37,638 nucleotides of DNA from Rhodospirillales bacterium (GCA_028291345.1 JAQGIF010000109.1:1-37638); one strand, 5' to 3'; shown: positions 8,730 through 30,690, counted from the stretch's first letter. The notes: generated from the letters alone by a model not told the origin. Numbers and translations: made by a program.

Positions 8730-8739
8730 GCCACAATGC

Positions 8740-9690
8740 TCACGATATGGACTTGCCTTGGGACAGCCGTTCGGCGAAGGCCAAAACTTCAGCGGCAACG
8801 CGGCGGCGGTCGTCACTGTTTCGCATCATCGTGTCCCTGACCAGTATAGCTGGCCCCTTGATATCGGATGACAAGCCGGCGTCAACCGCGTCGATCATCA
8901 ACCCGTCGAGCAGCGTATCATAGAAAGCCGCCACACCCAGCGACGATACGGCGATGCCGAGCTCATTCATGATCTTGGCGGCCGGACCTTTCACCGCCTG
9001 CCCACCGACGATCGGCGACACGGCGATGAGCGGCACTCTGCGATGTTCCAACGCATCGCGCACCCGCGGCAGCGACAGGATCGGCAGGATACTGAGAAAC
9101 GGGTTGGACGGGCAGATGACGATCGCGGTGAGTTCCGATGAAGAGAGTGCCGCCATGAAACCCGCACTCGGCTTCATATTTTCGATACCGGGAAACTCCA
9201 GCCGTTCGACCCGCGGGGCGCAGCGCAGCCTGACGAAATAATCCTGGAATGCGAGCAGGCCCCGGTCGGTCGCCACCATCGTGCGCAACGGATCGTCGGA
9301 GACCGGGACGATATGCTGCCTGATGCCCAACCGTGTGGCGAAATCGGCGGTGACGGTGGATAGCGTTTCGGTCTTGAGACGGCGAGTGCGCTCGATATGG
9401 GTGGCGATATCAAGGTCGCCCAACCGGAACCAAGTATCGCCGCCCAGCCGTTCCAGCGCGCCGATAAAGTTCCAGGTTTCGCCGGCCAAACCCCAGCCTT
9501 GCTCCTGATTATTGAGGCCGGCCAGGGTGTAGGTGACCGTGTCGATGTCGGGCGAGATCCGGAGGCCCAGATGCTCGAAATCGTCGCCGGTATTGACCGC
9601 GACGGTCAGCTCGCCGGGCGGCAGGATCGCTGCCAAGCCTTCCGCAAGCTTCGCGCCGCCCACGCCGCCGGCCAGGGCCAGGATGCTCAT
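8740..9690 (-). CDS. cofD: CofD, 2-phospho-L-lactate (or enolpyruvyl) transferase
   Basis: 316 residues, the family length. Motifs in order: LAGGVGGAKLAEGL at the N-terminus, AVNTGDDFEHLGLRISPDID (FO and metal binding), GETWNFIGALERLGGDTWF with DLDIATHIERTRRL, VICPSNPFLSILPIL, and VSPIVGGQAVKGPAAKIM. CofD (FbiA) transfers the phospho-acyl group from the guanylated donor to FO, giving F420-0 or dehydro-F420-0. The ATG start overlaps the stop of the nitroreductase-domain gene by 4 bases (ATGA) and the stop lies 10 bp before cofC, so the three are translationally linked. Nothing is missing. Confidence 0.96.
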   Translation of the reverse strand: MSILALAGGVGGAKLAEGLAAILPPGELTVAVNTGDDFEHLGLRISPDIDTVTYTLAGLNNQEQGWGLAGETWNFIGALERLGGDTWFRLGDLDIATHIERTRRLKTETLSTVTADFATRLGIRQHIVPVSDDPLRTMVATDRGLLAFQDYFVRLRCAPRVERLEFPGIENMKPSAGFMAALSSSELTAIVICPSNPFLSILPILSLPRVRDALEHRRVPLIAVSPIVGGQAVKGPAAKIMNELGIAVSSLGVAAFYDTLLDGLMIDAVDAGLSSDIKGPAILVRDTMMRNSDDRRRVAAEVLAFAERLSQGKSIS

Positions 9691-10340
9691 GGCAGTTTGA
9701 TTCCGGTCACAATTTCAGCCAGCGGTTTCCGTTCGCGAACCCGGCCAGGTTCGGCCGGCCAGCCGAGCAGCATCAAGCCCTGCGGTTGCCAGGACGCCGG
9801 CAATTCCAGCGCGGCCTTAACCGTATCGGCGCAGAAGAGCGGGGCGCACATCCAGCAGGCGCCGAGACCTTCGACCTGGGCCTTGAGCAGCAATAATTGC
9901 GCCGCCATCGCCGTGCTTTGCACCGCCATCAGATATTCGGCGTCGTTCCGGCGTGAATCTTGATAGGTGTCCATGTCCTCGAGCGTCAGGCAGACGGCGA
10001 TCAGGGCCGGCGCGCCGTTGATACGCGCGGATGAGCGGGCGACGTCTTGGCGGATGGCTTCGCTGTCGTCGCCATCCTTGGAGCGGTCGGCCCGCAGCCT
10101 GTCGCCCATTGCCGTAGCCAGACGCGCCTTGTTCGGCGCGTCGCGCACGACGTGGAAGCGCCAGGGTTGCCGGTTATGGGCCGAGGGGGCACGGCTTGCC
10201 GCCTGGACCATTCCGGCGATCATCGCATCCGGAACGGGATCGGGCAGAAAGCGGCGGACCGTACGACGCCCGGCGATTACGGAATCCAGGTCGTAGAATC
10301 CGTCCTGGGTCCGGGGCGATTTGCCGTGGACTAGCGAAAT
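9687..10340 (-). CDS. FbiB C-terminal-type nitroreductase domain, start codon unclear
   Basis: The frame encodes a nitroreductase/FMN-binding domain. The N-terminal FMN motif AGRRTVRRFLPDPVP (about 10230-10277) is followed by QAASRAPSAHNRQPWRFHVV and, later, AAQLLLLKAQVEGLGACWM and LMLLGWPAEP. The first ATG, at 10223, falls after the FMN motif. The frame is open to 10367 but holds no ATG, GTG or TTG upstream of that ATG; an ATT at 10340 overlaps the cofE stop. In actinobacterial FbiB this domain is fused behind CofE and reduces dehydro-F420-0. Here it lies in the -1 frame immediately after cofE. A non-standard start, a frameshift-made fusion, or a sequence error would each explain it. The coordinate 10340 is a working choice. 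Confidence 0.8.
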   Translation of the reverse strand: MSLVHGKSPRTQDGFYDLDSVIAGRRTVRRFLPDPVPDAMIAGMVQAASRAPSAHNRQPWRFHVVRDAPNKARLATAMGDRLRADRSKDGDDSEAIRQDVARSSARINGAPALIAVCLTLEDMDTYQDSRRNDAEYLMAVQSTAMAAQLLLLKAQVEGLGACWMCAPLFCADTVKAALELPASWQPQGLMLLGWPAEPGRVRERKPLAEIVTGIKLP

Positions 10341-11104
10341 AGATCGATCTCCTTCGGGCGGATCAGCTCATGGGCGTTGCCCTCGCGCCGCGCATAGGGG
10401 ACGCCACGTGCCAGCACGATCGGCCAGCCTTCGCTCGACTGTCCCATCACCAATGATGCGGCCGAGGCGAGCTCGTCGGCAAGACCCAACTCGCTGGTTT
10501 TGAGCGGGCGGCCGAACAGGTCCGGCTTGGTACGCAAATCGAGCAATCCCGCCATGCCGCTGAGGCCGATGGCGGTGCCGACAGTGCCATTGCGCCATGC
10601 ACGGCCTATGCTGTCGATTATCAGAACGGCGATGTCGATCCCGGTCCGCGCCTTCAGATCGTCGCGGATGCGATCGCAGGTACCGTCGGGGTCGCGCGGC
10701 AGCAGCAGGACGCGTTCGTCCTCTTCGCCATTGCCGATGTTGGACTGGTCGATACCGGCATTGGCGGCGACGAAGCCCAGCCGATGAGCGACGATGATCG
10801 CGCCCGGCCTGATGCGCAGAACCTCGTCGGATTCGGACAGGATCAGTTCGACGACGCGTGGGTCCTTATCGGACTGAGCGCCGATTTCGATCGCTCTGGC
10901 CGAGGGCTCGATTGTGCTGAGTTCGACCAAACAACCTTCGGCCTTTGACACGATCTTCTGCGCCAGAACGACGACGTCGCCGGCCTGCAGCGCCAGGCCG
11001 GATTCGGCCAGCGCAGTCAAGATGATGCCGGTTAGATCGTCACCCGCTTTGACTAGGGGCACGCCATCGAGAGCGCGAAGCGTCAACTCCGCGGGAGCGG
11101 ACAT
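10331..11104 (-). CDS. cofE: CofE, coenzyme F420-0:L-glutamate ligase
   Basis: 257 residues. Conserved parts include the N-terminal LRALDGVPLVKAGDDL, VVLAQKIVSKAEG (GTP/metal region), DPRVVELILSESDEVLR, GFVAANAGIDQSN and VLIIDSIGRAWRNGTVGTAIG, all typical of CofE and of the FbiB N-terminal domain. The enzyme adds one or more gamma-linked glutamates to F420-0 using GTP. The ATG at 11104 is 2 bp from the npdG stop. The protein ends ...KEIDLFR then TAG, which is where FbiB fusions pass into the linker before the nitroreductase domain; that domain follows here in the -1 frame. Confidence 0.95.
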   Translation of the reverse strand: MSAPAELTLRALDGVPLVKAGDDLTGIILTALAESGLALQAGDVVVLAQKIVSKAEGCLVELSTIEPSARAIEIGAQSDKDPRVVELILSESDEVLRIRPGAIIVAHRLGFVAANAGIDQSNIGNGEEDERVLLLPRDPDGTCDRIRDDLKARTGIDIAVLIIDSIGRAWRNGTVGTAIGLSGMAGLLDLRTKPDLFGRPLKTSELGLADELASAASLVMGQSSEGWPIVLARGVPYARREGNAHELIRPKEIDLFR

Positions 11105-11106
11105 GG

Positions 11107-11781
11107 TCAGTCCTGCTCGGGCAGGCCGGTGATGCGAATACCCGACCCTGGAATGTTATAGCGCTGGTTGATCGAGATCAGCACCGAGGTCAGGGCCTCA
11201 GCGACGACGGAATTGCAGAGAGGGCCGGCATGAAGGCCGCGCAGCCCGACAGCCTTGGCCAGTGTGATGACGGCTTCGCGGGCGGTAATATCGTCCCCCG
11301 TGACCAGCACGTCGCATTCGACCGTATGGGACAGGTCCTTCAGGTGATGGGCCGAGACGTTCTGGAAGGCCGAGACGACTTTGACGCCGGTTCCCAGCAT
11401 CTTCTGTACGGCCTCGACCGCCGAGCCTTCGGGCGGCAACTGAACCCGGTTTACCTTGGGCGGAACCAGAGGGACCGTGACATCGACCAGGATCTTGCCT
11501 TCCAGGGCACTCGCCACGTCCGAGACGGTCGGCTTCTGCGCCGAATAAGGCACCGTCAGTACGACGATCTGCGCTTCTTTCGCAGCGCTCAGATTATCCA
11601 TCCCGCGCACCAGTTCTTTGCCCAGGAGCGTGTTCAGTTCGGCGGCGCCGGCCTGCGCCTTCTCCGCAGAGCGGCTGCCTAGGATAACCGGATAGCCGGC
11701 ATAGGCCCAGCGGAAGGCCAACCCGCTGCCCTCGGCGCCGGTGCCGCCTAAAACGGCTAAAGTCGGTAACGAATCTGTCAT
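11107..11781 (-). CDS. npdG: NADPH-dependent F420 reductase (F420H2:NADP+ oxidoreductase)
   Basis: 224 residues, the family size. The Rossmann motif LAVLGGTGAEGSGLAFRWA is followed by ILGSRSAEKAQ, whose Ser-Arg pair binds the 2'-phosphate of NADP. VVLTVPYSAQKPTV and KVVSAFQNVSAHHL (F420 side) and the C-terminal GLHAGPLCNSVVAEALTSVL agree with Fno/NpdG. It moves hydride between NADPH and F420. It lies 25 bp after fbiC and 2 bp before cofE, inside the biosynthetic operon, so the cell can both make and reduce the cofactor. No F420-dependent enzyme of the luciferase-like or split-barrel class occurs in the window. Confidence 0.93.
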   Translation of the reverse strand: MTDSLPTLAVLGGTGAEGSGLAFRWAYAGYPVILGSRSAEKAQAGAAELNTLLGKELVRGMDNLSAAKEAQIVVLTVPYSAQKPTVSDVASALEGKILVDVTVPLVPPKVNRVQLPPEGSAVEAVQKMLGTGVKVVSAFQNVSAHHLKDLSHTVECDVLVTGDDITAREAVITLAKAVGLRGLHAGPLCNSVVAEALTSVLISINQRYNIPGSGIRITGLPEQD

Positions 11782-11806
11782 CGGATGCTCTTCTGGTCGA
11801 TTTGAG

Positions 11807-14206
11807 TCAGGCGTTCGCGGACTGCTTGCGCCGGATCGGCTTGGGTGGTGTCAAGATGATTGGCGTCAGTTCTTCGGCGACGCGGCCTGCCGCATGGCGT
11901 TCATCGGAAACGGGGCCGTAGACGGTATTACGCTGCCTCGGCGTCCGGCCGAGCGAGCGGATAAGCGCCTCCATTTCCAGCGGCGGCAGCTCCTGGCCAT
12001 GCTCGGTGCCGGCGGCGCGCGAAATGCTCTCATTCATCAAGGTGCCGCCCATGTCGTTGGCGCCGGCCTCGAGGCAGACCCGCACGCCCTCGCGGCCGAG
12101 CTTCACCCAGGACACTTGGATGTTCGTCAGCACGGGATTCAACGCCAGGCGGGCGACGGCATGCATCAGCACGGTCTCGCGGAAGGTCGGTCCCTTGCGC
12201 GCCGTGCCCTTGAGGTACATTGGCGCTTCCATATGGACGAAGGGCAGGGGCACGAACTCGGTGAAGCCGCCCGTGCGCGCCTGCAGCGCGCGGATGCGCA
12301 GCAGATGCCGTGCCCAGTGTTTCGGTTCCTCGATATGGCCGAACATGATCGTCGCCGTCGTATGGAAGCCGACTTTATGGGCGGCTTCCATGATGTCGAG
12401 CCATTCCTGGGTATTCAGCTTGTCGTGGCACAGGGTGTCGCGGATCTCATCATCGAGGATTTCCGCCGCCGTACCGGGGAGGGTGCCCAGCCCCGCTTCC
12501 TTCAGCCTGACCAGATAGTCGGCCACGGGCATGGCCAAGGTGGCCGCGCCCTGCTGAACCTCGAGCGACGAGAACGCGTGGATATGCATATCCGGAACGG
12601 CGCGCTTCACCGTGCGGCAGAGTTCGATATAGGTCTCGCCGGTATAGTCCGGGTGGATGCCGCCCTGCATGCAGACTTCGGTCGCGCCGAGATCCCAGGC
12701 CTCCACCGCGCGGCGCGCGACTTCCGAAAGGTCGAGATCGTAGGGAACCCCGCGCAAGGCTTCGTGGGTCTTCCCCTTGGAGAAGGCGCAGAAGCGGCAT
12801 TTATAGCCGCAGATATTGGTGTAGTTGATGTTGCGATTGACGGCATAGGTGACGACGTCGCCATTGATCTTGGTGCGCAGCCGGTTGGCCGCGTCCGTCA
12901 CATATTCGAAATCGACGCCGCGCGCGCCGAACAGGGTGGTGATCTCACCTTCGTCGAGCCCCGCACCGCTGACGGCTTTGGCAACCAGATCGACGACGAT
13001 GGGGTCCGGCCGCTCGCCGGGGCCCGCCTTGGCGGGCGCGATCGGTGTCACGGCGATGCCCGGCGCCCAGGAATCGTTGCGGCCCCAGCCGTGCGAGTCC
13101 GCCGATTGCAGGATGCGCGGGATCAGAGCCGGGTCCTGCCAGCGGGGATTGTCGTGGTAATAGGCCGGATAGATCGGCAGGCGGGCTGTCAGGATCTTGC
13201 CGGCGCTCGCGGTTTCGCGGCGCAATGCCTCGAGATGCGGCCATGGCGCCTCGGGATTCACATGGTCGAGCGTGACCGGCGATATGCCGCCCCAGTCGTT
13301 GATCCCGGCCTCGATCAGCACGCCATATTCGCCGGGGCTCAGATTGGGCGGCGCCTGGATGTTCATCTCCGCACCCAGCAGGATACGCGCGACGGCAATT
13401 GTCCAGAGCAGTTCGTTGAGATCCGGTTCCGGCGCGTCCGCCATCCGCGTTCCCGGCTTGGCCCGGAAATTCTGGATGATGACTTCCTGGATATGGCCGT
13501 ATTGCCGGTGCAGGTCGCGCAGCGCGAGGATCGACTCGATCCGCTCCTCCCGCGTTTCGCCGATGCCAATCAATATGCCGGAAGTGAAGGGGACGCTCTG
13601 CTCGCCGGCCAGCCGAATCGTTTCCAGCCGCCGCGACGGCAGCTTGTCGGGCGAGCCGTAATGCGGCCCGCCTTTCTGCGACAGCCGCTCGGACGCGCTT
13701 TCGAGCATCAACCCCTGACTAACCGAGACGCGCTTGAGCAGGGCGATGTCATCGGCGCCCATGACCCCGGCATTGATGTGCGGCAGCAGGCCCGTCTCCT
13801 TCAGGACGAGCCCGGCGGCCTCGGCGAGGTAGGAGAAGGTGGTTTCGTGACCGAGCCGGGCCAGCTCGTCTCGTGCCGCGCCATAGCGCAGTTCAGGCTT
13901 GTCGCCCAAGGTGAACAGGGCTTCGGTGCAGCCGGCGGCGGCGCCGGCACGGGCGACGGTCAGCACTTCATCGATGGTCATGTACCCCGTCTCGCCACGC
14001 TTGGGCGGGCGGGCGAAGGTACAATAATGGCAGACATCCCGGCACAGATGGGTCAGCGGGATGAACACCTTGGGCGAATAGCTTTGTATGCGCCCGTGGA
14101 AGCCGTCGCGCAGCGAGGCAGCGCGCGTCATCAGCGCGTCGAGTTCTGCTCCTACGAGATTCCCAAACTCAAGCGAGATGGGCTCATCCGATATTGCGAC
14201 ATTCAT
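11807..14206 (-). CDS. fbiC: FbiC, 7,8-didemethyl-8-hydroxy-5-deazariboflavin (FO) synthase
   Basis: 799 residues carrying two radical SAM modules. The N-terminal CofG-type half has CRDVCHYC (Cys55, Cys59, Cys62) and the C-terminal CofH-type half has CGYKCRFC (Cys466, Cys470, Cys473). HDNPRWQDPALIPRI marks the end of the CofG half, and GGIHPDYTGETYIEL and FVPLPFVHMEAPMY the CofH half. FbiC joins tyrosine with 5-amino-6-ribitylaminouracil to make the deazaflavin FO. The fused form is typical of actinobacteria, whereas archaea and cyanobacteria have separate CofG and CofH. The ATG at 14206 follows an AGGTGA-like site. It lies 54 bp downstream of the SDR gene and leads the F420 genes proper. Confidence 0.96.
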   Translation of the reverse strand: MNVAISDEPISLEFGNLVGAELDALMTRAASLRDGFHGRIQSYSPKVFIPLTHLCRDVCHYCTFARPPKRGETGYMTIDEVLTVARAGAAAGCTEALFTLGDKPELRYGAARDELARLGHETTFSYLAEAAGLVLKETGLLPHINAGVMGADDIALLKRVSVSQGLMLESASERLSQKGGPHYGSPDKLPSRRLETIRLAGEQSVPFTSGILIGIGETREERIESILALRDLHRQYGHIQEVIIQNFRAKPGTRMADAPEPDLNELLWTIAVARILLGAEMNIQAPPNLSPGEYGVLIEAGINDWGGISPVTLDHVNPEAPWPHLEALRRETASAGKILTARLPIYPAYYHDNPRWQDPALIPRILQSADSHGWGRNDSWAPGIAVTPIAPAKAGPGERPDPIVVDLVAKAVSGAGLDEGEITTLFGARGVDFEYVTDAANRLRTKINGDVVTYAVNRNINYTNICGYKCRFCAFSKGKTHEALRGVPYDLDLSEVARRAVEAWDLGATEVCMQGGIHPDYTGETYIELCRTVKRAVPDMHIHAFSSLEVQQGAATLAMPVADYLVRLKEAGLGTLPGTAAEILDDEIRDTLCHDKLNTQEWLDIMEAAHKVGFHTTATIMFGHIEEPKHWARHLLRIRALQARTGGFTEFVPLPFVHMEAPMYLKGTARKGPTFRETVLMHAVARLALNPVLTNIQVSWVKLGREGVRVCLEAGANDMGGTLMNESISRAAGTEHGQELPPLEMEALIRSLGRTPRQRNTVYGPVSDERHAAGRVAEELTPIILTPPKPIRRKQSANA

Positions 14207-15184: not shown

Positions 15185-16072
15185 TTAACCGCCATTCATC
15201 TCCGGATGGCCCCAAAGGCTGAAGATTTCGCTCTTGGTCGGGATGTAGTTCGACCAATCGACCTGCCAGGCGTCCCAGCCATATTCCACGTCGAAACCCG
15301 ACGGCGTCTTGATATAGGTCGACACCATCAGGTCGTTGCTGTGACGCCCCATATTGATCGAGATCGGCGTGCCGTTCCTTTTGCAGCGGTCGATGCAGCG
15401 GCCCAGATCGTCGAACTTATTCACCTCGATCATCAAATGGACCAGACCGCCCGGTATTTCCGCCTCGAACAGGGCCAGACTGTGATGGCGTGGATTATCG
15501 CAATGCAGGAAATAAAGGGCGAGGCCGGGATGGTCAGGAACGCCGATCGGCACCCGCATCTCGTCCGTGTCACCGAACCCCAGATAGGTCTTATAGAAGG
15601 CGCGGGTTTCCTCGACCTTGGGCGCCGGAAGGACCACGTGGCCGAGTCCCATATTGCCGGTAACGAAGCCGCTGACGCCGGCCGAAGAGACGAAAGGCGC
15701 GTAGTCGTAAACCCGGCCGTGATAGATTTCGAGATTGTTGCCCGACGGATCCTTGCAACGCGCCATGGCGCGGACCTTGCGGTCGGCGGCATCCGCGACT
15801 GAACCGTGCTCGATGGCGACACCCGCGCCGGCCAGCGAGTTCAGGCAGACGTCATAGGCATCCACACTCGGCAGTTCCCACCCGGAGGCGACGAAGCGGT
15901 TTTCCTTGCCGGGCACGATGGCGAGGCGGAATGGGCGGTCGTCCATACGGAAGCGCACGCCGCCATCCGCCGAGTCCAGGGGCATCAGCCCCAATACGTC
16001 CGCCCCGAATTTGCGCCAGGCAGCGATATCGGTGGCTTCGACAATGGCATATCCGAGCGATGAGATGGTCAT
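15185..16072 (-). CDS. Type I extradiol dioxygenase-like VOC protein (BphC/HsaC type)
   Basis: 295 residues with two VOC repeats, the layout of BphC-type ring-cleavage dioxygenases. The catalytic domain holds the metal triad at the expected spacing: His145 in MGLGHVVLPA, His212 in GGLVHLMIEV and Glu263 in SGFDVEYGWD. Such enzymes split catechols next to the hydroxyls using Fe(II) and oxygen, in biphenyl, dioxin or steroid degradation. The ATG at 16072 has a GAGGGA site 6-7 bases upstream; the in-frame extension to 16240 has a poor composition. It is the first gene of the minus-strand run that continues into an SDR and the F420 genes. The aromatic substrate cannot be named. Confidence 0.85.
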   Translation of the reverse strand: MTISSLGYAIVEATDIAAWRKFGADVLGLMPLDSADGGVRFRMDDRPFRLAIVPGKENRFVASGWELPSVDAYDVCLNSLAGAGVAIEHGSVADAADRKVRAMARCKDPSGNNLEIYHGRVYDYAPFVSSAGVSGFVTGNMGLGHVVLPAPKVEETRAFYKTYLGFGDTDEMRVPIGVPDHPGLALYFLHCDNPRHHSLALFEAEIPGGLVHLMIEVNKFDDLGRCIDRCKRNGTPISINMGRHSNDLMVSTYIKTPSGFDVEYGWDAWQVDWSNYIPTKSEIFSLWGHPEMNGG

Positions 16073-21254: not shown

Positions 21255-22021
21255 ACCTCGCCGATCTGCTGACAAAGCTGCGTCCTGTGGCCGAGGAAGC
21301 CGGGCGCGAGACGATGCGCTTTTACGGCGCGCCGGAAGCGACCTGGAAGGAAGATGGCAGCCCAGTCACGGCGGCGGACACGGCGGCCGAAGCCGTCATC
21401 CTGCCGGCCTTGCGTGCGCTGACGCCCGATATTCCGGTGATCTCGGAGGAAGAAGCGGCGGCGGGAACCAGCCCTGAGGTGAAGGGCAAGAAGTTCTGGC
21501 TGGTCGATCCGCTGGACGGCACCAAGGAATTCATCAAGCAGAATGGTGAGTTCACCGTGAATATCGCGCTGATCGACGATGGCGTGCCGGTTCTGGGCAT
21601 CGTCCATTCGCCGGTCACCGGCGACACCTACTGCGCCGCCGGGCCCGGCACCGCCACCCTGGCGTTAGCCGGTGGCGAGGCCAAGGCGATCGGCGTACGC
21701 CGGCCGCCGGCGGAAGGGCTTACGGTGGTCGCCTCCCGCTCGCACGGCGCCGGGCCTGAGCTCGACGCATTCCTGGCGGGTTTGAAAATCGCCGAGCAGC
21801 GTTCGGCCGGTAGTTCGGTCAAATTATGCCTGGTCGCGCGCGGCGATGCGGACGTCTATCCGCGGCTCGGCACGACGATGGAATGGGATATCGCGGCGGG
21901 CCATGCCGTGTTACTGGGGGCAGGCGGACGGATCGAAACCGTGGACGGCGCACCTTTCCTTTACGGCAAGCCGGAATTCCGCAATCCTCACTTCGTCGCC
22001 TATGGCGATTGGCGTCGCTGA
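21251..22021 (+). CDS. cysQ: CysQ, 3'(2'),5'-bisphosphate nucleotidase
   Basis: 256 residues of inositol monophosphatase fold. Metal-site motifs are [25 protein letters not shown] (DPxDGT) and [13 protein letters not shown] (WDxAAGxA). CysQ dephosphorylates the PAP formed when PAPS is used, and limits PAPS accumulation. Start is GTG at 21251, overlapping the cysNC stop. It completes the sulfate-activation operon; no PAPS reductase or sulfite reductase is in the window, so PAPS may feed sulfotransferases as well as assimilation. Confidence 0.95.
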
Positions 22022-22034
22022 TTGGGATGGTGGC

Positions 22035-22517
22035 ATGGTCGGGAACGGCGGTAAGGCAGGCCGATATGAGTTCGATGAAACGGACCGGAGAATTCTCGAG
22101 CTACTGAAGGTGAACGGCCGCGCGACCAACCAGAAGATCGCGCGTCTTCTCAAGATTTCGGCAGCGACCGTCAGCGCGCGCATCCGCCAGATGGAGGATG
22201 CCAAGGCGATGAAGGTAATCGCCGCCACCGATTTCTCGGCTTTCGGCTATAATATCCTGATCGCCATCGGGGTCGAAGTTCAGGGCCGGCCAGCTGAGGA
22301 TGTGGCGCAGGAACTGGCCAAGCTGTCACAGATATTGTCGATCAACCTCGTGACTGGCGCCAAGGACATCGAAATCCTGCTGGCGGTTCATGAATTCTCC
22401 GAACTTTCCGATTTCCTGCTGAACGATATCGCGGCGATCCGGGGGATCAGGAGCCTGTCGCCGGCGATCGCGGTGGATACCGTGAAGTTCGATTTCGATA
22501 TCGCGCCGCTGTCGTGA
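22035..22517 (+). CDS. Lrp/AsnC-family regulator (first of two)
   Basis: 160 residues. The N-terminal winged helix-turn-helix runs FDETDRRILELLKVNGRATN then RLLKISAATVSARIRQMED. The C-terminal RAM-type domain (FSAFGYNILIAIGVEVQG, LSINLVTGAKDIEILLAVHE) would bind an effector and form octamers. The ATG at 22035 lies 13 bp after the cysQ stop with GGGATGG upstream. The stop overlaps the start of the next Lrp gene. It may regulate the operon; the effector is unknown. Confidence 0.9.
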   Translation: MVGNGGKAGRYEFDETDRRILELLKVNGRATNQKIARLLKISAATVSARIRQMEDAKAMKVIAATDFSAFGYNILIAIGVEVQGRPAEDVAQELAKLSQILSINLVTGAKDIEILLAVHEFSELSDFLLNDIAAIRGIRSLSPAIAVDTVKFDFDIAPLS

Positions 22518-23020
22518 GCGGCGCCGGAATGACCAAATATCAGCTCGACACATTCGATCATCAGATATTGAAGGTTCTGGCCAGCGATGCCCGTCTTAGC
22601 AACCGCAAGATCGCGCAGGCGCTAGGCGTCACGGAAGGCACCATTCGGGGACGGCTGAAGCGGCTGCAGGAAGAGAATTATCTGCGTTTTACAGCGGTCA
22701 CCGCGCTCTCTTATCTTGGCAACCCGCTGCTCGTGTTCATCGGGGTCACTGCCGAGCAGGGGCGGGTCAAGGAGGTGGCGCAGGCGATCGCCGAAATGGG
22801 CGGCATCCGCAGCGTCATCATCACGTTGGGCCGGTTCAACATTCTTGTGGTCGGGATGTACGGCACATTGCAGGAGGTGCTCGACGTCGCCAACAACAGC
22901 ATCCTCGCCTTGCCGGGGGTCCGCCATGTCGAGACCTCGATCTCGGTCAAACAGCTGAAATACGACACCCGCCTCGCTAAGATCACGCGGCCGTTCGTAC
23001 CAGTGGATGACGACGAATAG
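22514..23020 (+). CDS. Lrp/AsnC-family regulator (second of two)
   Basis: 168 residues from GTG at 22514, or 163 from ATG at 22529. The HTH reads LDTFDHQILKVLASDARLSN then IAQALGVTEGTIRGRLKRLQ; the RAM domain reads VFIGVTAEQGRVKEVAQAIA and IITLGRFNILVVGMYGTLQE. It overlaps the preceding Lrp gene by 4 bases (GTGA). The two proteins share fold but clearly differ in sequence, so this is not a fresh duplication. Close coupling hints at a mixed oligomer or paired regulation. An SDR gene begins 58 bp downstream. Confidence 0.9.
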   Translation: MSGAGMTKYQLDTFDHQILKVLASDARLSNRKIAQALGVTEGTIRGRLKRLQEENYLRFTAVTALSYLGNPLLVFIGVTAEQGRVKEVAQAIAEMGGIRSVIITLGRFNILVVGMYGTLQEVLDVANNSILALPGVRHVETSISVKQLKYDTRLAKITRPFVPVDDDE

Positions 23021-23078: not shown

Positions 23079-23858
23079 ATGAATCTCTTCGACCTCACCG
23101 GCAGCGTGGCGATCGTCACCGGCGGAAATGGCGGCATCGGGCTGGGCATGGCCAAAGGGCTGGCCGGGGCCGGGGCCAAGGTCATGATCACCGGGCGCAA
23201 CGCCGCCAAGGCAGAGGGCGCGCTGCAGGAGTTGGCGGCGTTGGGCGCCGAGGCGGGCTTTATCGAGGGCGATGTCCGCGATGAAGCGACCTGCGGCCGC
23301 ATGATTTCCGAGACGGTGGAGCGGTTTGGACGGCTCGATATTCTGGTCAATAATGCCGGCGCCCACGCACATGGCAGGGCCGGGAGTTTGTCGCTGGAGG
23401 ATTGGTATGTCGATATCGATACCAACCTGACCGGTATGTTCCTGCTGTGCCGCGCGGCCTATCCGCATCTCAAGAGCGCCGGCGCCGAACGTCCCCATGG
23501 CGGGCGTATCATCAATGTTGGGTCGCTCGCCTCGACCGGCGCACTGTCCTATTCGGTGAATTATTGCGCCAGCAAGGGCGGGGTGCTGCAGCTGACCAAG
23601 GCACTCGCGGTCGAGTGGGGGCCGGATGGCATCAACACCAATTCGATTTTGCCGGGCTGGGTCGAGACCGACATTACCGCCGGCACCAAAAACGTCGAGG
23701 GCTTGCCCGAAATGATCGCCGGCCGGACGCCGACCGGCCGCTGGGGTCAGCCCGCCGATTTTGCCGGTATCGCGATCTATCTCGCCTGCCGCGCCTCGGA
23801 CTTCATGAACGGCGCCGGCATCACTGTCGATGGCGGCTATTCGATCAAGTTGCTTTAG
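23079..23858 (+). CDS. SDR-family oxidoreductase (FabG-like)
   Basis: 259 residues. TGGNGGIGLGMAKGLA cofactor motif near residue 12, ITGRNAAKAE (Arg suggests NADP), NNAGAHAHG, catalytic YSVNYCASKGG (Tyr-x3-Lys) and GAGITVDGGYSIKLL at the C-terminus. The ATG at 23079 follows CAGGGGAC, and homology begins there although the frame opens at 23007. It is cytosolic and reduces or oxidises an unknown carbonyl/alcohol. It follows the Lrp pair on the same strand and is convergent with the next TetR gene, 4 bp away. Confidence 0.88.
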   Translation: MNLFDLTGSVAIVTGGNGGIGLGMAKGLAGAGAKVMITGRNAAKAEGALQELAALGAEAGFIEGDVRDEATCGRMISETVERFGRLDILVNNAGAHAHGRAGSLSLEDWYVDIDTNLTGMFLLCRAAYPHLKSAGAERPHGGRIINVGSLASTGALSYSVNYCASKGGVLQLTKALAVEWGPDGINTNSILPGWVETDITAGTKNVEGLPEMIAGRTPTGRWGQPADFAGIAIYLACRASDFMNGAGITVDGGYSIKLL

Positions 23859-23862
23859 CCGG

Positions 23863-24462
23863 CTAGGCGCGATCGGCCAAGGTCGCGGCCCAAATATCGG
23901 TCAGGGTGGCCAGCAACGCGTCGCGGTCGTTCTTCCAGCCACCATAATGCCAGGCGTCCATGCAGCGCTCCAGCTGCAGGATCAGGAGATAGGCGCGCCG
24001 CCGCCCTTCTTCCGGGCTGAAGCGGTTCCACAACGGATTGTCGCTCATCAGCGCGTCGGCGCGATGTTCCATCTGCGCCAAGAAGTCAGCGCGTAATTCG
24101 GAGGGCATCTCCTGAATGACGATATAAGTCGTCTCGGCATTCTGGTCCCATGCCTCGAACATTTCCCGCATCCAGCCGCCGATGCTCTTATGGTTCCACT
24201 CGGTCAGGGCGCCGAAATGCTTATAGAGCGTGAAGGCGGTCTCCCACATGCTGCGGGCGAATTCGCGGATGACGTCCTGCTTGTCGGTAAAGTGCGCATA
24301 GAAGGTGGCGCGCGAGGTTCCTGCCGCCTTTGCGATGTCGTCGACGGAGGTGGCGCGCGTGCCGTTGCGGACGAACAGCTCCCGCGCCGCATCGACCAGG
24401 CGCTGGCGGGTAAAATCGCGTTGTTGCCGCCGCAGCGGTATCGGCTTGGCTTGATTCATCAA
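23863..24462 (-). CDS. TetR-family transcriptional regulator
   Basis: 199 residues. The basic N-terminus RRQQRDFTRQRLVDAARELF leads into VDDIAKAAGTSRATFYAHFTDKQDV, a standard TetR HTH. The C-terminal domain is helical with several Trp residues and no recognised signature. It diverges from the HiPIP operon with 236 bp between starts, and a symmetric site (24509-24536) lies between. It is the best candidate regulator of that operon, by position only. Confidence 0.9.
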   Translation of the reverse strand: MMNQAKPIPLRRQQRDFTRQRLVDAARELFVRNGTRATSVDDIAKAAGTSRATFYAHFTDKQDVIREFARSMWETAFTLYKHFGALTEWNHKSIGGWMREMFEAWDQNAETTYIVIQEMPSELRADFLAQMEHRADALMSDNPLWNRFSPEEGRRRAYLLILQLERCMDAWHYGGWKNDRDALLATLTDIWAATLADRA

Positions 24463-24536: not shown

Positions 24537-24698
24537 AAGCCCTGCTCCTTGCTAACCTATAGCACCCTATTGAACAGCCGTAAAATGACTCGACATTTGT
24601 AAAGTGAAAGACCATATTGTTTTTCAATAAGCGGCTTGTGACTTTTGTCGTATATAGGTCCGGTTAAGCAAACTGTGTACGGCAAGGGAGTTGATGTG

Positions 24699-24989
24699 AT
24701 GGGCAAGGTTGGGTTTTCACGGCGCACCGTTATCGAGCGCGGGCTTTTGATGGTTCCGGCATTGGCGTTCCTGCCGTCCATTGCCAAGGCTGCCGGAGCA
24801 TGTGCCGATCCGACCGACAGCCTGCGGGCGTCTTTGCATTATACCGAGATGGGGCCGGACGCTAAAATGGTCTGCGCCGGTTGCGGATTTTTCGAAGCCG
24901 ATGACGATAAAAGCTGCGGCAATTGCAAGATTTTCAACGGTCCGGCCAATGCCAAGGGCCATTGCGATTCCTGGGCCGCGAAGGGTTGA
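24699..24989 (+). CDS. Tat-exported high-potential iron-sulfur protein (HiPIP)
   Basis: 96 residues. The N-terminus GFSRRTVIERGLLMVPALAF has a twin-arginine pattern followed by a hydrophobic stretch, so export already folded is expected. The mature part holds CAGCGFF (Cys59, Cys62), CGNCKIF (Cys73, Cys76) and HCDSW (Cys89). The last matches the HiPIP C-x2-[FYW] end; ligands are probably 59, 62, 76 and 89. HiPIPs carry single electrons in the periplasm between redox complexes. The ATG at 24699 has GGGAG 8 bases upstream; an earlier ATG at 24645 is less likely. It is first in an operon of exported proteins. Confidence 0.85.
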   Translation: MGKVGFSRRTVIERGLLMVPALAFLPSIAKAAGACADPTDSLRASLHYTEMGPDAKMVCAGCGFFEADDDKSCGNCKIFNGPANAKGHCDSWAAKG

Positions 24990-25009
24990 CGCGGCGGGTC
25001 TAAATAATG

Positions 25010-25026
25010 TGTCCCGCATAGGGACA
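25010..25026 (+). other. Small hairpin between HiPIP gene and next gene
   Basis: TGTCCC (25010-25015) and GGGACA (25021-25026) pair around a 5-base loop, directly before the GGGGGAG ribosome site of the next gene. It might stabilise the upstream message or tune translation downstream. No T-run follows, so a terminator is unlikely. Confidence 0.35.
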
Positions 25027-25041
25027 GGGGGAGCAAGACTG

Positions 25042-26235
25042 ATGACTCGGTTCCAGTTATATACGCGGCCACTCGGCATTGTGGCCGGCTTGGCTTTGGC
25101 CATTGCCGCCGGTCATGCTTCGGCGAGCGAAACGCGTGGTTACGTCGTGAGCTGGTTTGGGGTCTCGACTTATTACGGCGGGGAAGGCGACTGCCCGGAC
25201 GGTCTCAATCCGATGTCGACGGAGTTCTATAAGCGGGAGTTGCTGCGCCTCGGCTATTCCGAGCCCGATGCGACCAAGCTGCTGAAGGATTTCCCCGGTA
25301 ATCCGGGCCGTCCGGATGGCGAATACATCAAGATCATGGGTACGCGCGGCGACAAGAAGACCAATGTCTATGCTCACCCCGAATCGGCCGCCGACCCCGG
25401 CCTGAAAGAGGTCAAAGGCAAGTTCGCCTACGGCTTCAACCTGGATGGCAAAACCGATTCGCCGATCTCGTTCACCGATCCGAATACCGGCGAGAAGGGT
25501 ATCAAGAACCAGTACTACCGCTCGCTGGGCTGCATCCGCAGTTTCCGCGCCCCGCCGCCTGCCCACCCGACCCTGGCGCAGGCACAATGGGACGTGCTGC
25601 GCGATGAGATGCCGGCCTGGCTGATTGAGATCGCGGGTATCACCGACTCCAAGAATTCGGACAATGTCACGGTGACGATCTCCCGTGGCGTGGATCATGT
25701 TTCCCGCGATGCGTCCGGCGCCGTCCGTTCAGACATGTCGTTCAAAGTCGATCCCGACCAGCGCTCGCACAATGTTCTGCATGGCAGCATCAAGAACGGC
25801 ATCCTGACGACCGAGCCATCGAATATCCGCATCGTCGCCGATCCGTTCCTGATCCCCGAATTCAGCTGGAAGAAGGCCCAGCTGAAGCTGGAACTGAAGC
25901 CGGACGGTTCGCTGAATGGCATCCTGGGCGGGTATCACGATTGGTACGCGCTGTATTGGAGCTATGCCGAGTCGGGCTGGGTCGAAGAGCACAGCGCTTC
26001 AGTCGACATGCCGGCTTTGTATTACTCGCTGAAGCGCAATGCCGACGCCGACCCGGATCCGACAACGGGAGAGAACAAGTCGATCTCGACCGCCTATGAG
26101 GTCGAGGCCGTTCCGGCCTTCGTGATCCACACGGAAGACAAGAACGACAAGAAGGTCTCGGATGCCGGCAGCACCCTTCCTGCGCACCGCGTCGAGGCGA
26201 ATTTGGGTGGATGGTTGAGGTCTCTGGGATGGTAA
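25042..26235 (+). CDS. Secreted protein of unknown function in HiPIP/DUF1592 operon
   Basis: 397 residues with a Sec signal peptide (hydrophobic GIVAGLALAIAAGHASA, cleavage near residue 29). I do not recognise the mature protein. Visible features are VVSWFGVSTYYGGEGDCPDG near the start of the mature part, a tyrosine- and glycine-rich first half, a lone Cys in SLGCIRSFRAPPP, and FNLDGKTDSPISFTDPNTGE. The second half has GILGGYHDWYALYWSYAESG, rich in aromatics. Two Cys (about 50 and 170) may pair. No CxxCH or membrane helix is seen. The ATG at 25042 has a GGGGGAG site. The stop overlaps the next gene (TAATG), so it works with the DUF1592 protein. Its function is open. Confidence 0.8.
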   Translation: MTRFQLYTRPLGIVAGLALAIAAGHASASETRGYVVSWFGVSTYYGGEGDCPDGLNPMSTEFYKRELLRLGYSEPDATKLLKDFPGNPGRPDGEYIKIMGTRGDKKTNVYAHPESAADPGLKEVKGKFAYGFNLDGKTDSPISFTDPNTGEKGIKNQYYRSLGCIRSFRAPPPAHPTLAQAQWDVLRDEMPAWLIEIAGITDSKNSDNVTVTISRGVDHVSRDASGAVRSDMSFKVDPDQRSHNVLHGSIKNGILTTEPSNIRIVADPFLIPEFSWKKAQLKLELKPDGSLNGILGGYHDWYALYWSYAESGWVEEHSASVDMPALYYSLKRNADADPDPTTGENKSISTAYEVEAVPAFVIHTEDKNDKKVSDAGSTLPAHRVEANLGGWLRSLGW

Positions 26236-27920
26236 TGTCCAATAGTCCGATGCGCCTGTTCGGCGCGCTCGGTTTCGCCGCGGCGATTGCACTGACGGGC
26301 TGCGGTCAGAAAGACGACGCCCCGGTCACAAAAGGCGGGCCAGTGTCGCTGCGCCGGCTGACCGAGCCGGAATATCGGCAGGTCATCGCCGATGTTTTCG
26401 GTACGACGATCAAGGTGCCGGGCCGGTTCGAGCCTGATATTCGCGACAACGGCCTGATCGCCGTTGGCACGTCGCGCGAAAGCGTTGCTGGAACTGGGCT
26501 CGAGCAGTACGACTTGACGGCGCGCGGCATTGCCGCCCAGGTCGTGGATGAGGTTCATCGCACAACGCTGGTTCCATGCACGCCGGCAAAGGCCACCGAT
26601 CGCGACGACGCGTGCGCAGCTAAGTTCATCGAGCGCACTGGAAGACTGCTTTTCCGCCGCCCGCTGAGCCAGGGGGAGATGGCGACCCAGGTCAAGGGTG
26701 CCGGTGAATCGGCAGCGAAGCTGGGGAATTTCTATAGCGGGTTGGAACTCAGCGTTTCCGCCATGCTGGTCTCGCCGCAGTTCCTGTTCCGTCAGGAGGC
26801 TGCCCAGCCCGATCCCGACAATGCAGGGCAACGGCGGCTCGACGGCTATTCCAAAGCCTCGCGTCTCAGCTTCTTCCTATGGGATACCACGCCGGATTCC
26901 GAGTTGCTCGACGCCGCGGCGAAGGGCGACCTGGATACTGATTCCGGTATTGCCAAACAGGTCGACCGGATGACCCACTCGCCGCGTTTGGCGGCGGGGG
27001 TGCGCGCCTTCTTCTCCGATATGCTGGGGTTTGACGGCTTCACAGCGTTGGCGAAGGACCCGCAGATCTATCCGAAATACAGCTCGCAAGTGGCTGCGGA
27101 TGCGCAGGAACAGACGCTGCGGACGCTCACCGATCTTCTGGTTACCAATAACGGCGATTATCGGGATGCTTTTACGACGCGCAAGACATATCTGACGCGC
27201 CTGCTGGGCTCGGTTTACGGCGTTCCGGTGATGACCTCCACGGGCTGGGAACCGCACGAATATGCGGTGGACGATCCGCGGGCCGGCATTTTGATGCAAG
27301 TCAGCTTCCTGTCATTGCATTCGCATCCGGGCCGCAGTTCGCCGACCATTCGCGGTAAGGCGCTGCGGGAAGTGTTTCTCTGCCAGAAGGTTCCCGATCC
27401 GCCAGGCAATGTGAATTTCGCGCTGGTCCAGGATACGAAAAATCCTGCGTTCCACACTGCGCGGGCGCGTCTTGGCGCCCATATTAACCAGCCGACCTGC
27501 GCCGGTTGCCACAAGATCATGGACCCGGTCGGCCTCGCGATGGAGAATTTCGACTCCGCCGGCGGCTTCCGTTCGACCGAAAACGACTCACTGATTGTGA
27601 CGGCTGGCGAAATCGACGGTATGAAGTTCGATGATGCCAGCGGCTTCACCAAGGTCATCCATGACCATCCGCAGGCTCCGGTCTGCCTCGTCAACCGCAT
27701 CTACTCCTTCGGAACCGGTCGGGCCGCGTCCAAAGATGAAGCGGAATGGTTGAATTACCAAGTCAAGCAATTCGTGGCGTCGGGATACAAGGTGCCCGAA
27801 CTGATGCGCCGCATCGCGAGCAGCAAGGCATTCTATCGGATCTCGACGCCCGGGACCGACGCAAACAACGCAACTTTGTCTATGGCGGGGACGAACACCC
27901 AAACGGAGGCACTAAAATGA
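26235..27920 (+). CDS. DUF1587/1595/1592/1588/1585 lipoprotein with c-type heme motif
   Basis: 561 residues. The N-terminus MRLFGALGFAAAIALTGCGQ has a lipobox, so it is probably a lipoprotein. Blocks follow the planctomycete-type set: SLRRLTEPEYRQVIADVFG (DUF1587), FIERTGRLLFRRPLSQGE (DUF1595), RLSFFLWDTTPDSELLDAA (DUF1592), HPGRSSPTIRGKALREVFLC (DUF1588) with CAGCH at about 422-426, and a C-terminal DUF1585-like part. The CxxCH implies covalent heme c. These proteins accompany DUF1552 proteins widely, but their reaction is not established to my knowledge. The start at 26235 overlaps the previous stop; in-frame ATGs at 26211 and 26229 are alternatives. The stop overlaps the next start (ATGA). 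Confidence 0.9.
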   Translation: MSNSPMRLFGALGFAAAIALTGCGQKDDAPVTKGGPVSLRRLTEPEYRQVIADVFGTTIKVPGRFEPDIRDNGLIAVGTSRESVAGTGLEQYDLTARGIAAQVVDEVHRTTLVPCTPAKATDRDDACAAKFIERTGRLLFRRPLSQGEMATQVKGAGESAAKLGNFYSGLELSVSAMLVSPQFLFRQEAAQPDPDNAGQRRLDGYSKASRLSFFLWDTTPDSELLDAAAKGDLDTDSGIAKQVDRMTHSPRLAAGVRAFFSDMLGFDGFTALAKDPQIYPKYSSQVAADAQEQTLRTLTDLLVTNNGDYRDAFTTRKTYLTRLLGSVYGVPVMTSTGWEPHEYAVDDPRAGILMQVSFLSLHSHPGRSSPTIRGKALREVFLCQKVPDPPGNVNFALVQDTKNPAFHTARARLGAHINQPTCAGCHKIMDPVGLAMENFDSAGGFRSTENDSLIVTAGEIDGMKFDDASGFTKVIHDHPQAPVCLVNRIYSFGTGRAASKDEAEWLNYQVKQFVASGYKVPELMRRIASSKAFYRISTPGTDANNATLSMAGTNTQTEALK

Positions 27921-29254
27921 GCGGAACAATGAACTCAAGCCGCAGGAATGTTCTGCGGGGCATGATGGGTGGCGCGGCGGTCAGCGTCGGACTGCCCTTC
28001 CTGGACTGTTTCCTGAACACGAACGGCACCGCTTTGGCTAATGGCACGGCGCTGCCCGTCGCCTTCGGCACGTTCTTCTGGGGCTGCGGCCTCAACCCCG
28101 GCCGCTGGGAGCCGAAGACTATCGGCACCAATTACGACATGAATATCGAGACGGCCGCGCTGCAGCCCTTCAAGAACCGCATGAATGTCATCAGCGGCAT
28201 GAAGGTGTTCCTCGACGGCAAGGGCGCACGCCCCCACTTCACGGGCGAGATGGCGATCCTGACGGGCGACGTGCCGCGTGAGCAGCCCAATTATGCCAGC
28301 CTCGACAGCATCGTCGCCGACACGATCGGGACGCGGACCCGCTTCCGCTCGCTCGAAGTGACCGGCACCGGCAAGCCGACCGACAGTCTGAGCCGGCGCA
28401 GTGCCAGCGTTTCCAACCCGGCGGAAATTTCCCCGGCGGCGCTCTATACCCGCGTTTTCGGAGCGGACTTCCGCGATCCCAACGCCGCGGATTTCAAGCC
28501 CGATCCGCGCGTTATGGTTCGCCGCAGCGTGCTGTCGGGCGTCACCGATCAGCGCGAAGCCCTGCTCAAGCAGGTCGGCGCGAACGATCGTCAGCGTCTG
28601 GACGAGTACTTCACTGCCGTCCGCCAGCTCGAGCAACAGCTCGATATCCAGCTGCAAAAGCCGGCCCCGCTCGAGGCCTGCTCGCCTTCAGCCCAGCCCA
28701 CCGATGCCGAACTCGGCACGGAAATCGAAAATGTCGTCGCCAACCATAAGCTGTTCGCGCAGATTCTGGCCCACGCCGTGGCGTGCGACCAGACCCATGT
28801 GACGAACGTCGTGTTCGGCGAGGCGACGTCGCCGCTGCGCAAGGCCGGCACGGCCATGACGCACCACATTCTGACACACGAAGAGCCGATGGATGCGAAG
28901 CTGGGTTACCAGCCGCAGGCCACGTACTTCATGGGTCGGATCGTGGAAACGCTGGCCTTCTATCTCCAGACGCTCGACAGCATCAAAGAGGGTGACGGCA
29001 CGCTGCTCGATCGCTCGCTGATCCTGGCTCATAGCGAGACGGGCTTCGCCAAGATCCACGCGCTGGAGAACATCCCGATGTTCCTGGCCGGTGGCGCAGG
29101 CGGCCGGATCAAGACCGGCATGCATGTCAAGATGGATGGCGAGCCGGTGACCCGCGTCGGTCTCACGGTTCAGCAGTCGCTGGGTATTCCGGTCGATAGC
29201 TGGGGCACGATGTCCCTGGCGACGTCGAAGCCGATTACCGAGCTCATGGTCTGA
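27917..29254 (+). CDS. DUF1552 family protein with Tat signal
   Basis: 445 residues. The N-terminus SSRRNVLRGMMGGAAVSVGL is a twin-arginine signal, then LPFLDCFLNTNG. The body matches DUF1552: FGTFFWGCGLNPGRWEPK, MNVISGMKVF, HFTGEMAILTGDVP, SLDSIVADTIG, and LILAHSETGFAKIHALENIP followed by FLAGGAGGRIKTGMH. This last resembles the sulfatase/DUF1501 alkaline-phosphatase-like fold, which suggests a metal site, though no activity is known. GGAGG precedes the ATG at 27917 and the start overlaps the DUF1592 gene stop, so the two are made together. Tat export implies folding or cofactor insertion in the cytoplasm. Confidence 0.9.
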   Translation: MSGTMNSSRRNVLRGMMGGAAVSVGLPFLDCFLNTNGTALANGTALPVAFGTFFWGCGLNPGRWEPKTIGTNYDMNIETAALQPFKNRMNVISGMKVFLDGKGARPHFTGEMAILTGDVPREQPNYASLDSIVADTIGTRTRFRSLEVTGTGKPTDSLSRRSASVSNPAEISPAALYTRVFGADFRDPNAADFKPDPRVMVRRSVLSGVTDQREALLKQVGANDRQRLDEYFTAVRQLEQQLDIQLQKPAPLEACSPSAQPTDAELGTEIENVVANHKLFAQILAHAVACDQTHVTNVVFGEATSPLRKAGTAMTHHILTHEEPMDAKLGYQPQATYFMGRIVETLAFYLQTLDSIKEGDGTLLDRSLILAHSETGFAKIHALENIPMFLAGGAGGRIKTGMHVKMDGEPVTRVGLTVQQSLGIPVDSWGTMSLATSKPITELMV

Positions 29255-29315
29255 TGCAATAAGGTGGAGTCCTAGTGGGGCTCCGCCGACTTGCGGATAT
29301 TTTAGGGGGCACTAA

Positions 29316-30593
29316 ATGCGGCTCATAACAGCGGCGCTCAGCATCGCAATTCTGGCGATGGTCGGCTTTCTTGCCAGCCAGTCGCTTCATCCGGCAGTCA
29401 AGCAGCAGGCCGCGGTTGCAGAAATCTCGACCATGCCGGCCGGGATCACGTTCCAGGTCGTGGCTTCGTCAAGCGCGATGAGTGCAATGGGGGCCTTCAA
29501 GGGCTATGCGGTCATCACCAACGAAAAGCACCGGACGATCTATGCGACCGACCAGGACACGACGCCGGGCAAATCCTCCTGCACCGGCGATTGCGCGAAG
29601 GATTGGCTGCCGCTGGCCGCCCCCGCCGACGCCAAGCCTTCGGGCTTTTGGGGTGTCCTGACGCGCGATGACGGGACCAAGCAATGGACCCGTCATGGCA
29701 AGCCGCTTTACACCTATGCCCAGGATAAGAACGCCGGCGACATCAAGGGCGCCTCCGTCGAATCCTGGCACTGGGTCCTCAACAACGCGATGTACGGCGT
29801 GCCCCTGCCGGAAGGCATCGTGACCGAGGAGATGGTCGCGGCCGGCGGACAGGCGTTCGTCGATGCCAAGGGCCGCACGCTTTATGCCTTCACGGGCGAC
29901 ATCAAGAACGACAAGGTCGCCTGTCCGCAGCGCGCAACCTGCGACAACGGCTTTACGCCGGTCGTCGCGCCGCAATTGGCGAGCGCGCTCGGGGATTTCA
30001 CGCCGATTTCGCGGACAGACGGGACCCGGCAGTGGGCCTATCAATCCCAGCCGCTTTATACTTATGACGGGGACGCGGAGCACGGCGATTCCAAGGGGCG
30101 GGCAGTCGATCCGCGCTTCCATGTGGCTTTGGGGGAAAAATACTTCCAGCCTGAGAATGTGAAGTTCGGCATTAACATCCGCGGCATGGACTACCTGACC
30201 GATGCCAAGGGCATGACGATCTATGCCCGCGACCGTTTCCACTTCCAAGTCGGCGGTTTCAGCCTTCGTGGCGGACAGGCCGGCGTGCCGCAGTTGGGCC
30301 AGTTCCTGGGCACCAGCACCTGCACCGGCGATTGCACCAAGACCTGGATTCCCGTCTCGGCGCCTGAAGATGCGAAGCCCGCCGGCTATTGGAGCGTGAT
30401 GAAGCGCAAAGAGGGTGGCAGTCAATGGGCCTATATGGGCTATGCCCTGTACACCTACACCGGCGACCAGAAGCCGGGCGATGAGACGTCGCATGACAAT
30501 TTCGACATCTCGTTGGGCAAGACGCTGCCGGCTATCCCGCAAAACCCGATCGACGCCGTGTCGGCCTTGTATTGGCGGGAAGTGCTGCCGTAA
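29316..30593 (+). CDS. Exported protein with three Lipoprotein_15-type repeats
   Basis: 425 residues with an N-terminal hydrophobic signal or anchor (LITAALSIAILAMVGFLA, no lipobox). Three repeats of the PF03640 (secreted repeat) kind follow. Each has a strand like RTIYATDQD, RTLYAFTGD or MTIYARDRF. A Cys pair comes next: CTGDC then WLPL; CPQRATC then FTPV; CTGDC then WIPV. Each repeat closes with a Trp-[TA] strand and LYTY followed by an acidic loop. Function of the repeat is unknown; many are found beside c-type cytochromes. It closes the operon 62 bp after the DUF1552 gene and a strong terminator follows. Confidence 0.88.
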   Translation: MRLITAALSIAILAMVGFLASQSLHPAVKQQAAVAEISTMPAGITFQVVASSSAMSAMGAFKGYAVITNEKHRTIYATDQDTTPGKSSCTGDCAKDWLPLAAPADAKPSGFWGVLTRDDGTKQWTRHGKPLYTYAQDKNAGDIKGASVESWHWVLNNAMYGVPLPEGIVTEEMVAAGGQAFVDAKGRTLYAFTGDIKNDKVACPQRATCDNGFTPVVAPQLASALGDFTPISRTDGTRQWAYQSQPLYTYDGDAEHGDSKGRAVDPRFHVALGEKYFQPENVKFGINIRGMDYLTDAKGMTIYARDRFHFQVGGFSLRGGQAGVPQLGQFLGTSTCTGDCTKTWIPVSAPEDAKPAGYWSVMKRKEGGSQWAYMGYALYTYTGDQKPGDETSHDNFDISLGKTLPAIPQNPIDAVSALYWREVLP

Positions 30594-30618
30594 CAGGCCC
30601 TCTCATATGACTATCGTG

Positions 30619-30647
30619 CGCCGCCTCACGAATATCATGAGGCGGCG
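30619..30647 (+). terminator. Rho-independent terminator of the HiPIP-DUF1592 operon
   Basis: Perfect 10-base arms CGCCGCCTCA (30619-30628) and TGAGGCGGCG (30638-30647) with a 9-base loop, then TTTGATTGTTTG. It lies 26 bp after the last gene. Confidence 0.8.
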
Positions 30648-30690
30648 TTTGATTGTTTGTCCTCTGACATCCATCCGGCACTGAAGGTAG

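Follow-up and report, generated by a model that had tools for sequence, protein, structure and literature searches.

A putative TetR-controlled periplasmic oxidoreductase module with a HiPIP carrier and a conserved partner protein in a bog alphaproteobacterium

We analyzed a 37,638-nucleotide stretch of DNA ("the window") from a bog alphaproteobacterium (Rhodospirillales bacterium; GCA_028291345.1 JAQGIF010000109.1:1-37638), which contains an operon at positions 24699-30593. Three of its genes, which encode the exported protein P0001, a DUF1592 protein, and a DUF1552 protein, form a conserved unit, and P0001 is linked to the other two across several lineages of alphaproteobacteria. We propose that the products of the operon make up a periplasmic oxidoreductase module under TetR control, with HiPIP as the electron carrier and an organic compound as the molecule to be oxidized. 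We give this explanation, taken as a whole, an even chance of being right.

The operon comprises five open reading frames, all on the + strand. The first encodes HiPIP (24699..24989), which matches PF01355 (E=1.2e-6; 29.1 bits versus a cut-off of 22) and has four cluster cysteines with the spacing CxxC-x13-C-x12-C. P0001 (25042..26235) belongs to an undescribed family. P0002 (26229..27920, with an alternative start at 26211) is a mono-haem lipoprotein of the X132/PSCyt3 type, and P0003 (27917..29254) is a DUF1552 (HXXSHH) protein (PF07586, E=3.1e-46; 158.8 bits versus a cut-off of 30). P0004 (29316..30593) is a six-repeat Lipoprotein_15 protein (PF03640, six stretches, E=5e-47). The preliminary description had these five genes joined by stop-start overlaps. 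The reading frames and families agree with that description, but only two of the junctions overlap (7 bp at P0001/P0002 and 4 bp at P0002/P0003), while HiPIP/P0001 and P0003/P0004 are separated by gaps of 52 and 61 bp. The strong terminator that it described corresponds to a hairpin at 30618..30648 on the + strand (-28.2 kcal/mol, z=-4.2). None of the shuffled sequences gave an equally good hairpin; a simple terminator scanner did not list it.

Judging from signals that we read from the sequences, all five products are predicted to be located outside the cytoplasm. HiPIP (SRRTVIERG) and the DUF1552 protein (SSRRNVLRG) both have twin-arginine motifs. P0002 has the lipobox LTGC, P0001 has a Sec-type signal ending in ASA, and the N terminus of P0004 is hydrophobic.

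The preliminary description also treated the five genes as the set that might be conserved across genomes. What recurs is instead the trio of P0001, DUF1592, and DUF1552, often with Lipoprotein_15. This genome has 7 copies of the trio and a congener has 9; the corresponding sets of P0001 proteins have 9 and 11 members. Across three genomes from the genus, we found 7, 9, and 4 copies of DUF1552 and 7, 9, and 3 copies of DUF1588, and we found neither domain in two genomes from the same family. In six-frame HMM searches, 18 of the 19 loci of the genus with a readable DUF1592 gene had P0001 and DUF1552 alongside it. (The exception is L037; L038 begins inside DUF1552, so it was left out of the count.) Lipoprotein_15 lies beside most of the trio loci, but not all of them, and three genomes have HiPIP, always at the orthologous locus and not at the others.

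Beyond this genus, we found the trio in sphingomonads (Novosphingobium RL4, the Sphingobium plasmid pMSHV, and Sphingobium TomMM15) and in three further lineages of alphaproteobacteria (genomes G102, G185, and G143). Scattered occurrence of these genes would have spoken against a functional unit, and we did not observe it for the trio, with one exception: in Sphingobium TomTYG65, P0001 is about 200 kb away from the DUF1592/DUF1552 pair, on the same plasmid. Among 385 sampled alphaproteobacterial genomes, P0001 and above-cut-off DUF1552 are present in exactly the same six; because three of these six share a genus, the co-occurrence amounts to 4 of 276 when counted by genus. A phylum-wide search for P0001 gave matches in only two alphaproteobacteria. 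In four genomes from outside the class, the loci that we fetched contain DUF1552 but no P0001. In a tree of DUF1552 proteins, the P0001-linked proteins form one group (support 92/92, and in 95% of bootstrap trees), which is suggestive, as several of the P0001-free sequences are long branches. Some loci have tandem copies of P0001 before a single DUF1592/DUF1552 pair: three copies in L034 (8114-11989) and two in L022 (10098-12522).

In profile scans, P0001 did not reach the cut-off of any Pfam or NCBIfam family. Its invariant features are C51, C164, and a GxNLDG-type motif. The AF2 models of P0001 (pLDDT 79.8) and P0002 (pLDDT 79.9) were built from the window and the genome loci only and are of fair quality. 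Neither model has a match in the PDB at E<=0.001, so these two proteins may have a new fold, and an enzymatic role has no structural support. We dropped the idea of assigning functions from the folds and made no use of weak beta-barrel matches to P0001. A sequence search of the PDB with profiles for four of the families gave no meaningful match either. Separately, we considered whether P0001 is a detached form of the insert that lies between DUF1587 and DUF1595 in fused proteins, and we rejected this because neither HMM searches nor hhalign found any similarity.

In P0002, the domains DUF1587, 1595, 1592, 1588, and 1585 are all above the gathering score and are in the order seen in PSCyt3/PSD proteins. 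The haem motif that was noted previously is CAGCH at residue 424, which is the CxxCH of DUF1588, and it is kept in all of the homologs that we read. It is the only CxxCH in P0002, which lacks a fused N-terminal cytochrome domain. The DUF1552 protein, whose gene adjoins this PSCyt3 gene, has conserved His, Asp, and Glu columns.

The lone haem motif is a general property of the DUF1592 proteins that are linked to P0001: they are about 540-560 amino acids long and all have a single CxxCH, within DUF1588. In contrast, all six of the P0001-free relatives (L079-L084) have at least one additional CxxCH, either N-terminal or ahead of DUF1587. The genes next to the P0001-type modules encode a variety of small carriers. 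HiPIP adjoins the module at three orthologous loci, a class I cytochrome c in G102, cytochrome c' in G185, cytochrome c' together with b561 in Novosphingobium RL4, Sphingobium pMSHV, and TomMM15, and plastocyanin in G143. G143 serves as an internal control: it has both types of DUF1592 protein, and plastocyanin is beside the unfused type only. From this comparison of loci, we infer that the built-in cytochrome of DUF1592 proteins was replaced by exchangeable soluble carriers. Most of the paralogous modules in the genus have no adjoining carrier gene, so sharing of carriers must be assumed for these paralogs.

Upstream of the operon and divergent from it is a gene for a TetR-family regulator (23863..24459, - strand; PF00440, E=4.8e-17), as the preliminary description had it. 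Its orthologs in G001 and G002 (85% and 81% identical) are in the same divergent position. It adjoins a gene for an SDR oxidoreductase (23079..23858, + strand), whose orthologs in place are 83% and 81% identical. The SDR and TetR genes flank the operon in all three species, and the SDR may have a role in the system. The intergenic region has otherwise diverged, but the GTAAAWTGACTCGACAKTTGTAAAG block and the promoter hexamers show little or no variation among the three species. A conserved 25-bp element, GTAAAATGACTCGACATTTGTAAAG, at 24580..24604 (no strand assigned) is an invariant block and a candidate TetR operator, and it overlaps the -35 box of a sigma-70-like promoter (TCGACA-17-CATATT, 24590..24618, + strand). 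The promoter scan gave no more matches than it did with shuffled sequences; both boxes of this promoter are invariant in the three species. Each of the three genomes has the core of the element a single time, at this operon, also when two mismatches are allowed; G003 and G004 do not have it. A single element per genome fits with a local regulator acting at this candidate operator. A pair of Lrp/AsnC-type regulators is also found near the module, both in the window (22002-23020) and on pTomMM15a (L058 18860-19821; 46% and 43% identical).

As for the substrate, TonB receptors adjoin many of the modules. Next to the module on pMSHV of S. herbicidovorans lie genes for an SDR, a Baeyer-Villiger-like flavoprotein, a KshA-type Rieske protein, and two Hsa-like enzymes, namely an HsaC-like extradiol dioxygenase and an HsaA-like oxygenase. 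The HsaA-like oxygenase scores 397.8 bits against a cut-off of 450, and its best solved match is 2rfq, a 3-HSA hydroxylase. The window contains an HsaC/BphC-type extradiol dioxygenase (15185..16072, - strand), about 8.6 kb upstream of the operon. Its best solved match is from M. tuberculosis (2zi8, E=4e-75), it shares 41.5% identity with its HsaC-like counterpart next to the module of S. herbicidovorans, and it scores 286 bits for NF045631, which is below the cut-off of 450. The HsaA and HsaC relatives are below the cut-offs of these NCBIfam equivalogs; KshA_C is above its Pfam cut-off. A KshA-type gene lies directly after one module in G000 and in G001. The three genomes from the genus encode 7, 10, and 2 KshA-type proteins, and two genomes from the same family encode none. 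Downstream of the operon, the window encodes MATE, MaoC, and a distant 4-oxalocrotonate-decarboxylase-type protein, in an order that is kept in G001.

A steroid-like substrate is plausible, though less likely than not. One further clue is that the Tom strains of Sphingobium can break down alpha-tomatine (PMC10653915). The Sphingobium plasmids often carry KshA-like genes, so finding them close to the module there is weak evidence. Neither KshA nor a convincing HsaA is present on the RL4 plasmid or in G102 or G143, and G185 has no KshA, which makes steroids unlikely as the general substrate. We rejected a steroid link as a general property of the module because it is missing in the first three of these.

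We also noticed several other genes near the modules and in the window. In two paralogous modules, genes for the two subunits (2Fe-2S and MoCo) of a molybdenum hydroxylase follow Lipoprotein_15 (L019 6023-8743 and L032 3335-6057), and the MoCo subunit has a twin-arginine-like motif. In the two genomes that contain L022 and L034, a luciferase-like monooxygenase gene is found after Lipoprotein_15 (L022 4683-5576 and L034 16472-17365). By our reading of the sequence, positions 8085-14206 of the window encode F420 biosynthesis-like proteins (CofC, CofD, CofE, and a fused CofG/CofH) and an F420-dependent NADP reductase; given these genes, the luciferase-like monooxygenase may use F420. Finally, three lineages have a gene near DUF1552 for a protein with a VOC/glyoxalase fold and what looks like an export signal (L016 13079-13570, L056 5819-6298, and L023 1895-2467).

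We envision that the mono-haem P0002 and the Tat-exported DUF1552 protein would together form the catalytic redox core. P0001 would be the dedicated partner of this core in alphaproteobacteria, and the Lipoprotein_15 protein would be a frequent accessory. The haem of P0002 would be the point where electrons enter or leave, and its partner would be HiPIP, a soluble carrier dedicated to the module that stands in for the cytochrome domain fused to DUF1592 proteins elsewhere. More tentatively, an organic compound would enter via a TonB-dependent receptor and be oxidized by the core, and electrons would pass from the haem of P0002 to HiPIP and then to the respiratory chain. If we had to name the compound, we would guess at a steroid- or terpenoid-like molecule. 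Because the exported set recurs with different carriers in other species, this is very probably a real oxidation system of the envelope. The preliminary description had proposed an inducible extracytoplasmic oxidation system. The recurrence of the trio, its frequent small carrier neighbors, and the conservation of TetR and the 25-bp element in three species support a conserved redox gene set that acts outside the cytoplasm, be it by oxidation or by electron delivery.

In the reverse direction, electrons would flow from the quinol pool to HiPIP, cytochrome c'/b561, or a cupredoxin, and from there into an oxygenase or peroxidase-like step outside the cytoplasm; the same has been proposed for Cbp2D and LPMOs. 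We consider this fairly unlikely. Cytochrome b561, which is encoded beside several of the modules, can link quinol to the periplasm. However, HiPIP and plastocyanin are usually high-potential carriers, and we did not recognize an LPMO or another extracytoplasmic oxygenase beside any P0001-type module. In vitro, LPMOs are reduced by the CjX183 domain of Cbp2D, which is a related multidomain protein, and growth on cellulose is poor when cbp2D is mutated (PMC8981238, PMC12542752). On the other hand, results with Teredinibacter homologs are inconsistent with a role as the donor to LPMOs (PMC10916295).

It is also conceivable, but quite improbable, that HiPIP is an independent respiratory carrier that shares a promoter with DUF1592, DUF1552, and P0001, which do something else. 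None of the paralogous modules contains HiPIP, and the genes may only be co-regulated. But HiPIP is the sole HiPIP in each of G000, G001, and G002, and it is kept at this exact locus in the three species even though the HiPIP sequences are just 61-72% identical. Also, the equivalent position in other lineages is taken by different carriers. (Besides the four cluster ligands, HiPIP has two more conserved cysteines in all three species.)

We think it very improbable that DUF1552 is a hydrolase with the alkaline phosphatase fold, in a module that chiefly breaks esters or sulfates and in which the haem is minor or structural: the C-terminal motif of DUF1552 appears to resemble DUF1501 proteins, which we take to be alkaline-phosphatase-like, but the persistent carrier neighbors and the haem motif in every DUF1592 partner would be left unexplained. 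PSCyt genes are found near sulfatases in Verrucomicrobia (PMC5615132), which fits with hydrolysis.

Returning to an oxidoreductase with HiPIP as its carrier, a broader idea is that P0001, the unfused DUF1592 protein, and DUF1552 represent an undescribed class of periplasmic oxidoreductases that work with any one-electron carrier of the host (HiPIP, cytochrome c, cytochrome c'/b561, or plastocyanin) and that make the first attack on steroid- or terpenoid-like molecules outside the cytoplasm of soil alphaproteobacteria. This is speculative, and we would not expect it to hold in full. DUF1592/DUF1552-type pairs span Planctomycetes, Verrucomicrobia, and Proteobacteria; in the literature that we found, nothing is known of their function, and neither DUF1592 nor DUF1552 proteins are assigned a reaction. 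In alphaproteobacteria the form is compact, its carriers are separate proteins, and its partner is defined; its small size would allow it to be expressed and assayed, and it is found on plasmids of named Sphingobium strains.

Among known systems, DUF1800 and DUF1501 genes also come in pairs whose function is unknown and in which one partner is exported by Tat (PMC5122149), but the families are different. Genes of testosterone and cholesterol catabolism (HsaA, HsaC, and KshA types) adjoin the module on pMSHV and, in part, in the window and in G000 and G001; the literature on these pathways that we found does not describe a DUF1592 module. The X132 domain, which is found in Cbp2D of Cellvibrio japonicus and in TERTU_2913 and TERTU_3803 of Teredinibacter, is a C-terminal CxxCH domain that starts with a Pfam DUF (DUF1587 in Cbp2D), in secreted proteins with an inferred redox role, and no characterized homolog of X132 has been reported (PMC10916295). 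By their descriptions, P0002 shares the X132 arrangement from DUF1587 onward, and the DUF1587-1585 set from Pfam appears to be X132. The Cbp2D and Teredinibacter proteins are large, with CBMs, fused X183 cytochrome domains, and a polysaccharide context. In contrast, P0002 is a lone lipoprotein of about 550 amino acids that has a single CxxCH and is accompanied by separate carriers and by P0001; the five PSD/PSCyt3 domains are the only ones in it above the cut-off, without CBM, X158 (YceI-like), or X183 domains. The planctomycete-specific PSCyt3/PSD proteins, which are paired with DUF1552 in the PVC superphylum and other Proteobacteria, have the same five Pfam domains in the same order as P0002, with DUF1552 adjoining. 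In the relatives of this type that we examined, a haem motif is present at the N-terminal end along with extra segments, and P0001 is absent. Relative to the known PSCyt and X132 proteins, then, what is new here, as far as the sequences can tell us, is that the fused cytochrome is missing and that P0001 has been gained.
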